A DNA stretch of 36,518 bases from Parafilimonas sp. Lineage in GTDB: Bacteria > Bacteroidota > Bacteroidia > Chitinophagales > Chitinophagaceae. The translations under genes were made by a program, and so were the position numbers. The first letter of the stretch is position 1. Each line of letters starts with the position of its first letter. The notes below the pieces were generated by a model. It worked only from the letters and a program-made list of their open reading frames with translations, did no database searches and was not told the origin of the DNA. Below are positions 27,345-32,675 of this stretch, piece by piece. The stretch is from assembly GCA_025927795.1 (NCBI GenBank), contig JAICKT010000002.1, positions 1 to 36,518 on the forward strand, written 5' to 3'.

Positions 27345-27370
27345 AAAAAAGGATGTGTAGAAACACATCC
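27345..27370 (-). terminator. Intrinsic terminator of the haloperoxidase/DoxX unit
   Basis: Minus strand GGATGTGT-TTCT-ACACATCC-TTTTTT, downstream of the CDS ending at 27436. Confidence 0.85.
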
Positions 27371-27376
27371 CGCTTA

Positions 27377-27392
27377 CTTGTATTATTACTTA
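27377..27392. repeat. Copy 1 of exact 16-mer CTTGTATTATTACTTA
   Basis: Identical 16-mer also at 29755-29770 and 29989-30004. Confidence 0.9.
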
Positions 27393-28259: not shown

Positions 28260-29600
28260 TTATTTTATGCTTGACACTTCTTTTTTTGTTGACATTAATT
28301 TATCCATTACAAGGTCGCCGATTTTAATGCCCTGGTCTCTGCCTTCAACAATGGCTTTATAATAATGTATGCCTCCATAAAACCTGCTTAAAGAAACATC
28401 CCACGAACATTGGTTTAGTGATGTAAATTTTCTGTCTGCAAAGCCCCAATCTCTTTCTGAAGAATCAGTAAACGAAATTTTGTCTCCATATACTTTTGTA
28501 AGAAATTCAGCAGCCGCAGAAGAAATTACAGAGTGCCCGCTGATGTATTCAGGAAATGGCGGCGTTTGCAAAAATGGTTTCCAATTCGGGTCAATATATA
28601 AATTAATATAAGTTTCCGGGCGTATCATATCATAATAATATTTGTAATACCAGCATGCAATAAACGCATCAAACATACCTATTGAGGAACCTGTATAATT
28701 AAATACTGTTTGATACCAGTCTGCATTTTTATCCATGCTGATGGTGCCAATAATTTCCATCCAGTGTCCCGGCGGTGTCATAGCTTTTGTTGCAAACATT
28801 ACATGCCCTTCCTGGTGCATTTTAAATGAATTGCAATCCCAAAAATTTGATTGCCATTTTTGTGCATCGGTTAAAGCGTTCACAGTATCATAAACCTGTT
28901 TAGCCATTTTATAAAATTCACTTGTTGAATCTTTACTAAATGGCGGCGGCGGATTTATAGAAAAAACATTTGCCGAATCAAGTGTAAGCGTACGAATGGT
29001 TTGCCACTTTGGTTCAACAGCATCAAAATAACCCGGCGGTGTGGGCAACCAATGTCCATCCAAACCCGTAACTGTAAATTTTGAGCCGCGTGTTTTTCCA
29101 TAATTATCTTTTTTGCTCCATGAAAGAACTGAATCTGCCACGCGATTACCATAGTTCACAGAACTGTCAAACATTTCCTTCGTCATGTTTGTTTCTTTAG
29201 CAAGATTTTTTACTGAATCAATTAATGCATCCATTCTTGCTTCGGAAAAAGTAAGCGCTTTACCCACTTTCATCATAGCAATAACAGATGCAAAAGGGAA
29301 ATCAACTTTGTCTGGTTTTGCAGGTGAAGGAATATTTTTTAAATCTTTTATTTCTCTTTCAAGCGAAGCATAATGTTTTCCTTCTTTTGAAAGTGTTTCA
29401 TACGCCGCAAGATTTGCATACGCAAAAATGCGCGAAGCAACAGGTGGATTGAAGATGTCATAAATAACAACATAGTTTAACTCATGCATTGTTTTGCAAT
29501 ACAAATCAGGATTGTGCATTACTGTTTTATAATCCTTTTTATTGCATGAAGAAATTGCAGCAGTGCAAAAGATCAAACCAAAAACAACAACTTTTTTCAT
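28260..29600 (-). CDS. Vanadium-dependent haloperoxidase/PAP2-superfamily lipoprotein
   Basis: Lipobox TAAISSCNKK; KYYYDMIRP (Kx6RP), EYISGHSVISSAAAEFL, SRFYGGIHYYKA correspond to the vanadate/phosphate-binding motifs. Confidence 0.88.
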   Translation of the reverse strand: MKKVVVFGLIFCTAAISSCNKKDYKTVMHNPDLYCKTMHELNYVVIYDIFNPPVASRIFAYANLAAYETLSKEGKHYASLEREIKDLKNIPSPAKPDKVDFPFASVIAMMKVGKALTFSEARMDALIDSVKNLAKETNMTKEMFDSSVNYGNRVADSVLSWSKKDNYGKTRGSKFTVTGLDGHWLPTPPGYFDAVEPKWQTIRTLTLDSANVFSINPPPPFSKDSTSEFYKMAKQVYDTVNALTDAQKWQSNFWDCNSFKMHQEGHVMFATKAMTPPGHWMEIIGTISMDKNADWYQTVFNYTGSSIGMFDAFIACWYYKYYYDMIRPETYINLYIDPNWKPFLQTPPFPEYISGHSVISSAAAEFLTKVYGDKISFTDSSERDWGFADRKFTSLNQCSWDVSLSRFYGGIHYYKAIVEGRDQGIKIGDLVMDKLMSTKKEVSSIK

Positions 29601-29630
29601 TTCAATATTTCAATTTCCATTTTAAAAAAT

Positions 29631-29652
29631 ACCTCGTTAAGAATAACAAGGT
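29631..29652 (-). ncRNA. Hairpin copy A of a four-member array (structured element; minus strand ACCTTGTTA-TTCT-TAACGAGGT)
   Basis: 9-bp stem incl. one G-U, loop TTCT on the minus strand, followed by ATTTTTT. Confidence 0.55.
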
Positions 29653-29726
29653 CTCATTTGCTATTGATTAAAATTTTTTATACAAATTGATTTTTTAATT
29701 TCACTTAAGTTTTCATTTTTAAAAAA

Positions 29727-29747
29727 ACCTCGCTAAGAATAACAAGT
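29727..29747 (-). ncRNA. Hairpin copy B (minus strand ACTTGTTA-TTCT-TAGCGAGGT)
   Basis: 7-bp stem with G-U pairs, same loop, followed by TTTTTTT. Confidence 0.5.
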
Positions 29748-29754
29748 CCCAATG

Positions 29755-29770
29755 CTTGTATTATTACTTA
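29755..29770. repeat. Copy 2 of exact 16-mer CTTGTATTATTACTTA
   Basis: Read directly. Confidence 0.9.
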
Positions 29771-29846
29771 AAAATTTTATTTAATTAAATTTTGTTTCAT
29801 CGTTACCATTTTATTCAACACAATATTTCAAGTTTTTTTAAAAATT

Positions 29847-29868
29847 ACCCCGCTAAGAATAACGGCGT
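29847..29868 (-). ncRNA. Hairpin copy C (minus strand CCGTTA-TTCT-TAGCGG core)
   Basis: 6-bp core stem with changed bases on both arms relative to copy A; same loop. Confidence 0.5.
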
Positions 29869-29961
29869 GTATTACTTATTAGTGAGACAAAAACTTTTAT
29901 ATTTTATGTTAGAATTCAAAACAATGCTTTCATTATTATGAATTTATTTTCTTTTAGAAAT

Positions 29962-29983
29962 ACCTCGCCAGGACTAACAAGGT
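29962..29983 (-). ncRNA. Hairpin copy D (minus strand ACCTTGTTA-GTCC-TGGCGAGGT)
   Basis: 9-bp stem incl. three G-U pairs; lies just after the stop codon of the CDS ending at 30021. Confidence 0.5.
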
Positions 29984-29988
29984 CTGTG

Positions 29989-30004
29989 CTTGTATTATTA
30001 CTTA
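29989..30004. repeat. Copy 3 of exact 16-mer CTTGTATTATTACTTA
   Basis: Read directly. Confidence 0.9.
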
Positions 30005-30020
30005 TAGAAATTTTTAATGA

Positions 30021-31106
30021 TTAAAATTTAATTACAAAACCAACATTAATTACATAATCTGCAAACGCAGCATCGCCTTGTGTGTACATACCTGTTAATG
30101 CTGTTTTATTTTTATCAGGAACACTTTGCGTGCGATTTCTTACCAATGCGACAGGCACATAAGCATAAGCGCTGAATCTTTTTAAACTATAAGAAATGCC
30201 TTGTTCTTCTGAAATAATATAACCTGGCCTTCTAAAGCCCTGACTGCCGCCAATTAAATCGTGCACAGGCAAACATTCGTCACGTATTCCTGCAGAAAAC
30301 ATCCACTTATTTAAATCAAAGTTTACACCTGCACGAATAAGATATTGATCAGGCACGCTCATTACGTCACTTCCAATTTCAACGGTTTGTGTACTGGGTA
30401 TGCCACCACGAGAAGTAGAAACACCATTTTGTTCTCTTGGATTTACGAGATAATAAAAGTTTCCATACAAGCCTACATGATGAGAAAAATTGTAGAACGT
30501 ATTTGCTTCAACGGTAAAGCCTGTGCCGCCATCACCTAATTGTATTGATTGATCAACAGGTCCCACAATCGTTGTTGAATCATTGATGTGAAATCTATCC
30601 TGGTATTTATAATCGCCGGTTGGAAATTTAATTCCTAATCCAAGTTGTAAATTAAAATGCTCAGATTTCTCAGGATCAAACATCCAGCGATAAGCGCTAA
30701 ACCGAATATCACCTACACCAAAAGAATGTGTGCTGTAACGATGAACTTTGTCGTGCTCATATAAAGACGAGCGAGAGTTATCAAGAATAGGAACATCAAC
30801 CAATAAACTCCAGCGCTGATTCAATTCATGTGTTACTGTAATATCAATAGTAGTGGAATGATTGATAACATTGGAACCCGCTTTTATTCTTTCTTCTTGT
30901 TCCTCTTTTCCAATAAAATGTTTATACGATCTGTAAAAGCGATAATTAATTCCTAACTGCCATTTGCTTGCAGTTGAAATGGAATCAGGCATGCGCAGCG
31001 AGCATGTTGCACCAGTACTGCGGATAGCTACACAACCTTGTGAATAAATTTTATTATTGATAATAATTGTTGAAAGAAAACTTAGAATAAAAAATAATTT
31101 TTTCAT
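30021..31106 (-). CDS. Secreted/outer-membrane beta-barrel-like protein (transporter-like)
   Basis: Signal peptide ...NNKIYSQG; alternating aromatic/hydrophobic strands; ends VINVGFVIKF (C-terminal Phe). Confidence 0.7.
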   Translation of the reverse strand: MKKLFFILSFLSTIIINNKIYSQGCVAIRSTGATCSLRMPDSISTASKWQLGINYRFYRSYKHFIGKEEQEERIKAGSNVINHSTTIDITVTHELNQRWSLLVDVPILDNSRSSLYEHDKVHRYSTHSFGVGDIRFSAYRWMFDPEKSEHFNLQLGLGIKFPTGDYKYQDRFHINDSTTIVGPVDQSIQLGDGGTGFTVEANTFYNFSHHVGLYGNFYYLVNPREQNGVSTSRGGIPSTQTVEIGSDVMSVPDQYLIRAGVNFDLNKWMFSAGIRDECLPVHDLIGGSQGFRRPGYIISEEQGISYSLKRFSAYAYVPVALVRNRTQSVPDKNKTALTGMYTQGDAAFADYVINVGFVIKF

Positions 31107-31127: not shown

Positions 31128-32675
31128 TTATTCTGCACCATCGTGTTCAGCTCTCAGCACTGCATAATTCCCAACCCTTTTACCTGCAACCATACCTGAA
31201 TCGCAATCCATTTGTGTATGAATCCCTGCAATAAACCTTGATTTTGCTGCTTCCGCAGACAAGGCTTCGTATTTAGCAGCATTGGCTGGTATAATATGAT
31301 CTAAAATGGTTGAAGCAGCTTCACTAAATGTTGAATGCCCAGATATATATGACGGAAAATTTGGGATACCGGTTAATGTTTTAATTTCAGGCATCATTTG
31401 CGTTGGACGCGGATTGAAATAAAAATATTTCGTGTTCCAACATACAATAGCTGCATCCATCTGACCCATATTTAATAAAGCCATATTCCGTGCCCAAAGC
31501 ACTTCACTATAATCTTGTTTGATGAAATCTTCTGCAGCAATTGCATTCCAGTGCCCTGTTGGTGTGTACGTGCCAGCACCATCAGCCCAAAACTGTACAA
31601 TTCTTTCCTGCTCTCTTGTTGGATTTTTTATTTGAACATAAGCAGCTTTATTTTGTTCTTCAAACTCACCACTTTTTGTGGAGTAAGGATAACCGGGACG
31701 AATTTTTGTTACCGTTATTGAATCAAATAAAAATGGCAACACATTACCATATAATGGCAGCATCGGCGGACGCTTTGGTGTTTCTAAACTAAACCATGGT
31801 GTTTCGCCGCGGGCTGTTGTGTTTGTTACAAACGCGCTCCATATATCAGGATTACCGCCAGCAGTACCCGCATGGTCTGTCTTTGCACGCGCAGTAAACA
31901 GCGCAGCAATTTGTCTTCCCAATGCTTCACCTGCATTTATATCAGTACGTGTTGCGGTGCCACTTTGTATGGCTGCTAATTCTTCGTCTTCTACTTTCTG
32001 CTGAATGTTTGCTACTTCAGTAGGAAACATCAGTTTAGTTATTTCAGAAGTTACACCTGCAAGCACAGCAGCTTCTGATGGATAAGAAGGCAAATCATTT
32101 TTTCCATTCATTGCATTAACACTTGCATCAACTGTGTATGGTGCTGGCTGATTATATAGTTTTTTATAGTACCAGCATGCAACAAGTGCATCATACTGTG
32201 CAGCGCTTATATAAGCAAATGCTCTTGCAGCAAATGGCGGATTTGAAAACGGGAATTGCGGATAGTTAAATGGATTTACAGAATTTGGAGCAGGGTATGT
32301 TCCATCTTCATTTTGATAAGGAGGAAGATTATGTTTTGCCACCATCTCACGAATAATTTCATTCCATCTTAAAACACCGCCGGCACCCCAATAACGAATA
32401 TTATTTATTGCATCATCGCTTAAATTTTCCTGGTAGCCTTTAATTTCATTCAGGTCTCCAATATATGCAGGTGTATTAGTTGCAGGTGGTGCAGCTACTG
32501 CAATTGCATCGGGACTCGCAAGCAAAACTGTTTTCCATGATCCTGCATTCAAATCTTGTGAAGCAGGATTAAGTGCAGGCAAATTATCTGTTCTTCCATG
32601 TACTTCTTTATTACATGAAAAATAAATTACAGAACTAAGTGCAGCAAATATTGAAAGTGATATTATTTTTTTCAT
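31128..32675 (-). CDS. Vanadium-dependent haloperoxidase/PAP2-superfamily lipoprotein (second, divergent paralogue)
   Basis: Lipobox SVIYFSCNKE; KYFYFNPRP (Kx6RP), SYISGHSTFSEAAS, SRFIAGIHTQMDCDSG. Confidence 0.88.
   Translation of the reverse strand: MKKIISLSIFAALSSVIYFSCNKEVHGRTDNLPALNPASQDLNAGSWKTVLLASPDAIAVAAPPATNTPAYIGDLNEIKGYQENLSDDAINNIRYWGAGGVLRWNEIIREMVAKHNLPPYQNEDGTYPAPNSVNPFNYPQFPFSNPPFAARAFAYISAAQYDALVACWYYKKLYNQPAPYTVDASVNAMNGKNDLPSYPSEAAVLAGVTSEITKLMFPTEVANIQQKVEDEELAAIQSGTATRTDINAGEALGRQIAALFTARAKTDHAGTAGGNPDIWSAFVTNTTARGETPWFSLETPKRPPMLPLYGNVLPFLFDSITVTKIRPGYPYSTKSGEFEEQNKAAYVQIKNPTREQERIVQFWADGAGTYTPTGHWNAIAAEDFIKQDYSEVLWARNMALLNMGQMDAAIVCWNTKYFYFNPRPTQMMPEIKTLTGIPNFPSYISGHSTFSEAASTILDHIIPANAAKYEALSAEAAKSRFIAGIHTQMDCDSGMVAGKRVGNYAVLRAEHDGAE

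Follow-up and report, generated by a model that had tools for sequence, protein, structure and literature searches.

Intrinsic (Rho-independent) terminators, including the partial terminators and attenuators that lie within operons, consist of a short hairpin with a U-run, co-directional with transcription and placed after stop codons, possibly with partial read-through. Tandem intrinsic terminators are known, and terminator loops are normally taken as free to vary. Lambda-type nut sites combine a boxA and a boxB hairpin, i. e., a linear box, a short spacer, and a small hairpin with a conserved loop and a variable stem, and REP/BIME-type extragenic palindromes are repeated intergenic hairpins at gene 3' ends that are sometimes clustered. 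The hairpin element described here, which lies between genes of a vanadium-haloperoxidase operon of a Chitinophagaceae bacterium, differs from intrinsic terminators by a near-fixed KUCY loop on a free stem, a conserved upstream box, and repeated tandem amplification at one gene cluster; the ordinary terminators of relatives have neither the KUCY loop nor the box in common with it. Its layout is like that of lambda nut sites, but a U-run follows the hairpin, the box sequence is unrelated, and a binding protein is only hypothetical. With REP/BIME it shares the repeated 3'-end hairpins; however, it is not dispersed, with close copies in this operon only, and its hairpin is U-tailed. With a probability of roughly 60 %, we read it as a clade-specific, tandemly amplified intercistronic intrinsic terminator or attenuator with a conserved loop and box, a role predicted from sequence; as relatives carry it after the same genes, at times also in tandem, it probably serves as a brake on transcription and is not junk.

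The window (the whole stretch of 36,518 nt that was analysed) holds the following features of this operon, given in the direction of transcription:

31128..32675, minus strand: haloperoxidase 1 / PAP2 family, 515 aa; its downstream side in other genera was surveyed for the element
30021..31106, minus strand: outer-membrane barrel protein, 361 aa (PF13557)
29987..30003, minus strand: 5' box of copy D, AAGTAATAATACAAGCA
29962..29983, minus strand: hairpin copy D, first transcribed, ACCTTGTTA-GTCC-TGGCGAGGT, weak U-tract ATTTCTAA
29871..29880, minus strand: degenerate box of copy C, from alignment, AATAAGTAAT
29847..29868, minus strand: hairpin copy C, ACGCCGTTA-TTCT-TAGCGGGGT, tail AATTTTTAA
29753..29769, minus strand: 5' box of copy B, AAGTAATAATACAAGCA
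29727..29748, minus strand: hairpin copy B, GACTTGTTA-TTCT-TAGCGAGGT, tail TTTTTTT
29653..29669, minus strand: degenerate box of copy A, from alignment, AATCAATAGCAAATGAG
29631..29652, minus strand: hairpin copy A, last, with the next start codon about 30 nt on, ACCTTGTTA-TTCT-TAACGAGGT, tail ATTTTTT
28260..29600, minus strand: haloperoxidase 2, 446 aa, closest solved structure the vanadium-dependent haloperoxidase 4cit (E 2e-115)
27376..27391, minus strand: 5' box ahead of the operon-end terminator, AAGTAATAATACAAGT
27351..27371, minus strand: operon-end terminator after the DoxX-like gene, GGGATGTGT-TTCT-ACACATCC followed by TTTTTT

Between the stop of the barrel gene at 30021 and the start of haloperoxidase 2 at 29600 lies a gap of 420 bp, the sequence of which agrees with the four stem-loops that the first-pass annotation had placed there, all on the minus strand, with spacings of 96, 120, and 115 bp, three TTCT loops, one GTCC loop, and T-rich DNA after each copy, which is weak for the copy at 29962. 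The retained pairing that had been described also holds: CCGTTA and TAGCGG pair in copy C (29847), with one G.G mismatch further out, and copy D (29962) is paired with three G-U pairs. That the hairpins fill nearly all of the gap was overstated, since the array spans the gap but occupies only about 88 bp of it. Copy B (29727) has lost two outer pairs and is the weakest with −6.4 kcal/mol, as compared to about −10 kcal/mol for the others. On the transcribed strand, the stems have 7–9 bp, with stabilities of −6.4 to −10.9 kcal/mol within the window and down to −16 kcal/mol in relatives, and the U-rich tract 3' of the stem, found on the operon strand only, has U at 6–7 of 8 positions in A and B but at only 4–5 of 8 in D and C. 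With 3 mismatches allowed, the pattern matched four times in the window, exactly at the array copies, as compared to 0.01 ± 0.10 matches in shuffles. The same pattern gave one extra, poor match in the whole 4.65-Mb genome, and a dispersed repeat or mobile palindrome (REP/MITE-like) was rejected since close copies are confined to the operon. An integron attC, considered for its symmetry, was discarded because no core-site pattern fits by eye, and a coding reading because the frames hit stops. No Rfam family matched the element above the gathering score (chance-level matches only, up to E = 5), and no description of it was found in the open-access papers searched.

Relatives were searched for the element both by similarity and with a first covariance model (R1), built on 8 copies. 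The same operon occurs in five other genomes of the genus with one to three copies each, namely one in G001 (at the same place as the window array), two in G003, one in G004, two in G006, and, in G005, one after haloperoxidase 1 plus two after AhpD; the whole 441-bp region as a DNA-similarity query returned mostly AT-rich noise, except for the G005 and G001 loci. The gene upstream of the element varies, being the barrel gene in G000 and G001, haloperoxidase 1 in G003, G004, and G005, and an unrelated region in G006. From the last hairpin to the next start codon there are only about 19–33 nt in G000, G001, G003, G004, and G006 and before AhpD in G005, which leaves no room for a promoter in between, so that transcription of the downstream genes must come from read-through or from a promoter ahead of the hairpin. 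Within the array, no Bacteroidetes-type TTTG/TAnnTTTG site (at most 1 mismatch) was found, the nearest one lying in the coding end of the barrel gene. A small structured RNA, as had been considered, is accordingly less likely at the window locus, given also that the element follows the stop codons of many genes.

Beyond the genus, R1 and a second model, R2 (23 copies), located the element in at least 10 other genera, where it lies beside genes for haloperoxidase 1 or 2, the barrel protein, TonB, or trehalase (loci in G010, G020, G042, G058, G082, G084, G097, G227, G243, G263, Ginsengibacter hankyongi (L155), and others). At L155, it is found upstream of an AhpD-like gene. A second four-copy array lies between haloperoxidase 1 and a TonB gene in G010, a member of another genus, and further tandem copies were seen at L162, L263, and L280. 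The covariance-model search proposed in the first-pass annotation hence did find further copies in relatives, and the tandem ones support its suggestion that the unit may have been duplicated. In the G010 array (L104, 5690–6060), the upstream flanks of copies 3 and 4 are near-identical over about 30 nt, but several positions of the stems have changed with compensation; these stems diversify faster than their flanks, perhaps via template switching or gene conversion. At another locus (L157, 6340–6648), the barrel gene has shrunk to a 102-aa remnant with both ends kept, and the downstream hairpin is retained.

The element stands shortly after stop codons whatever comes next, be it a TonB, trehalase, AhpD, or haloperoxidase 2 gene or even a convergent gene (L269), and a position independent of the following gene is as expected for a terminator of the upstream unit. 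The downstream haloperoxidase as the target was thus too narrow a view, as haloperoxidase 1, the barrel gene, AhpD, and other genes all have the element on their 3' side. Furthermore, the U content of the last copy exceeds that of the first in 8 of 8 tandem arrays (sign test, P = 0.004), and these better U-tracts make the last copy the likely main stop and the upstream copies weaker ones. The relatives support, in the main, the predicted role as tandem attenuators or terminators. Against it stand the stems of the window copies, which are modest at −6 to −11 kcal/mol, and the broken U-tracts of C and D, as well as the fixed loop and box, which would be superfluous in a plain terminator. Under the proposed mechanism, the element would be a moderately strong intrinsic terminator within the operon that part of the polymerases passes: a polymerase leaving the barrel gene would meet up to four signals, and a fraction would stop at each, which would lower the haloperoxidase-2/DoxX message relative to that of the upstream genes. 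Alternatively, the effect might be a trimmed and protected 3' end of the upstream message. Those copies that lie closest to the next gene and have the best U-tracts would serve as the main stop, to which the upstream ones, as weaker and partly decayed duplicates, would add. In Flavobacterium psychrophilum, likewise a member of the Bacteroidota, mapping has documented intrinsic terminators with partial termination (PMC9723704).

The unit consists of an upstream box, a short spacer, a 9–10 bp stem of nearly free sequence, a UUCU-type tetraloop, and usually a U-run. The box AAGTAATAATACAAGCA is exact before D and B, and its 15-nt core recurs exactly just once more in the genome, at 27377, where it precedes the TTCT-loop hairpin and T-run at the operon end (27351..27371), a terminator whose sequence is conserved in G001 and G003. 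Of the linkers, taken earlier as degenerate repeat copies, only the repeated 16-mer bears this out, as the 5' box of the hairpin unit; the remainder is essentially unrelated. The box reads AAUACAAGCA in its own genus and a looser AAGYA elsewhere. Across the same-genus genomes, AATACAAGCA is nearly invariant and the apical GYTA-TTCY-TRRC is retained, while the outer stem varies with compensation. That both loop and box are conserved hints that read-through may be tuned by a protein or another factor. A stronger version, which we consider rather unlikely, is that box and UUCU hairpin form the site of a trans-acting factor in a regulated attenuator or protein-binding array (nut/antitermination-like), with tandem copies raising sensitivity. 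The conservation of loop and box alongside completely diverging stems would fit such a site, as would the paired stems and mostly also boxes retained in upstream copies with weak U-tracts, the independent tandem arrays, and the same box ahead of a different terminator at the operon end; however, no candidate factor was found in the operon, the box is degenerate in copies A and C as well as beyond the genus, and unrelated genes also carry downstream KUCY-loop hairpins. An anti-terminator in which the box pairs with the 5' arm is possible by eye in B and D (5 bp, ACAAG/CUUGU) but was rejected as not conserved, because in other genomes the same box comes with different arms. In alignment A3, loop position 4 covaries with the second stem base after the loop in most copies (columns 36 and 38, unpaired in the model), the combinations being U...A or C...G, which yields UUCUUA and UUCCUG.

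A survey designed to avoid model-based selection of hairpins covered 90 Chitinophagaceae loci from a protein search with haloperoxidase 1, for which 450 nt downstream were taken and the first 300 nt scanned. A KUCY loop was present in 21 of the 40 U-tailed hairpins found 3' of this gene (17 of them UUCU) on quite different stem sequences, as compared to 1 of 84 U-tailed hairpins after 611 ordinary ORFs from 11 genomes of the family (Fisher P = 8e-12), and with the own genus left out the count was still 20 of 38 (P = 1e-11). The loop is thus enriched on the 3' side of haloperoxidase 1 rather than being a general property of terminators. At the level of loci, 20 of 90 had a KUCY-loop hairpin and 39 of 90 any U-tailed hairpin; the absence of a U-tailed KUCY hairpin from over half of the haloperoxidase-1 loci counts against the terminator explanation. 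The lone control hairpin with a KUCY loop follows an Hsp20-like gene and has an AAGCA box. A box-less model of loop and stem (R3) matched 3–33 times per Chitinophagaceae genome (typically 10–30) and 1–8 times in other families of the order, in many cases after unrelated genes, and was rejected as too general to be operon-specific. These putative UUCU-loop terminators are a minority class in Chitinophagaceae, strongly enriched at haloperoxidase operons. It is a tentative and rather doubtful extension that such 3'-end elements (AAGCA-like box, free stem, UUCU loop, U-run) have a dedicated reader across the family, an RNA-binding or RNA-polymerase-associated protein or other factor, which would set read-through, with haloperoxidase operons tuning expression by gain and loss of tandem copies. 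A AGCAGTTGGTTTTGGTT-type box with a TTCT/TTCC-loop hairpin also occurs right after Hsp20-like genes of several genera, with differing stems (L422, L376, and L360 near 8488). At L368 and L392, a conserved leader, AGTTGTGAATTTA.TGGGTTAGTAAGT, lies about 75–125 nt before radA-like genes and is followed by a terminator-like hairpin with a TTCT/TTCC loop; in L368, this leader comes just after a TAnnTTTG promoter-like site.

An improbable alternative to termination is that the hairpins are 3'-end stabilisers or processing sites, which protect the upstream mRNA end or mark cleavage and thereby set stoichiometry gene by gene without much termination. Their place right after stop codons within a polycistronic unit would suit this role, and the first copies in G003 and G006 keep the hairpin despite a poor U-tract; yet the better U-tract is kept in the last copy of each array, and the operon-end copy resembles a standard terminator.

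Selection on structure, as had been suggested from the window, is supported by the relatives, with strong covariation by pair counts. Among the 23 copies of R2, 94.7 % of cells are paired and 7 of 9 pairs doubly changed, in counts that ignore kinship; doubly changed cells number 29, as compared to 10 when shuffled, and the covariation score is 0.559, as compared to 0.295 ± 0.029 after shuffling and no more than 0.213 after sliding. In alignment A4, strong covariation is partly built in because many members were picked as hairpins; A1 and A3 are fairer tests, some members of which were likewise found with a structure model. A functionless, decaying tandem repeat from replication slippage around one real terminator fits the lost pairs, mismatch, or poor U-tract in copies B, C, and D and the single copy of G001 but not the compensatory changes and the independent arrays in other genera, and is hence most improbable for the array as a whole, decay being a fitting description of the upstream copies with their weaker U-tracts only.

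Across much of a bacterial family, this element at one kind of gene retains its loop while its stem varies freely, and its copy number differs between species. If the terminator reading is true, nature would here provide brakes in series, from one to four, on which the tuning of read-through and a possible loop-reading factor could be studied in Bacteroidota, a phylum in which, to our knowledge, read-through control of such kind is poorly known.

A separate, highly conserved intergenic RNA was observed outside the window (G000:C480:13120-13182) and at L384, L385, L388, and L398–L420. It had no Rfam match and no mention in the literature searched, and it looks like a sigma-54-dependent small RNA: a sigma-54-like promoter (TGGCA-N5/6-TTTG(C)) is followed after 30–60 nt by CAATTTTCTCATAAGCAGTT[AG]GTTTTGGTT, a GC-rich hairpin, often CGGCCCCTG-TTTCTA-CAGGGGC, and a T-run. 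The promoter-plus-box pattern was present in 66 of 150 Chitinophagaceae genomes, nearly always once per genome and with 67 matches in all, as compared to 0 for the reversed pattern.
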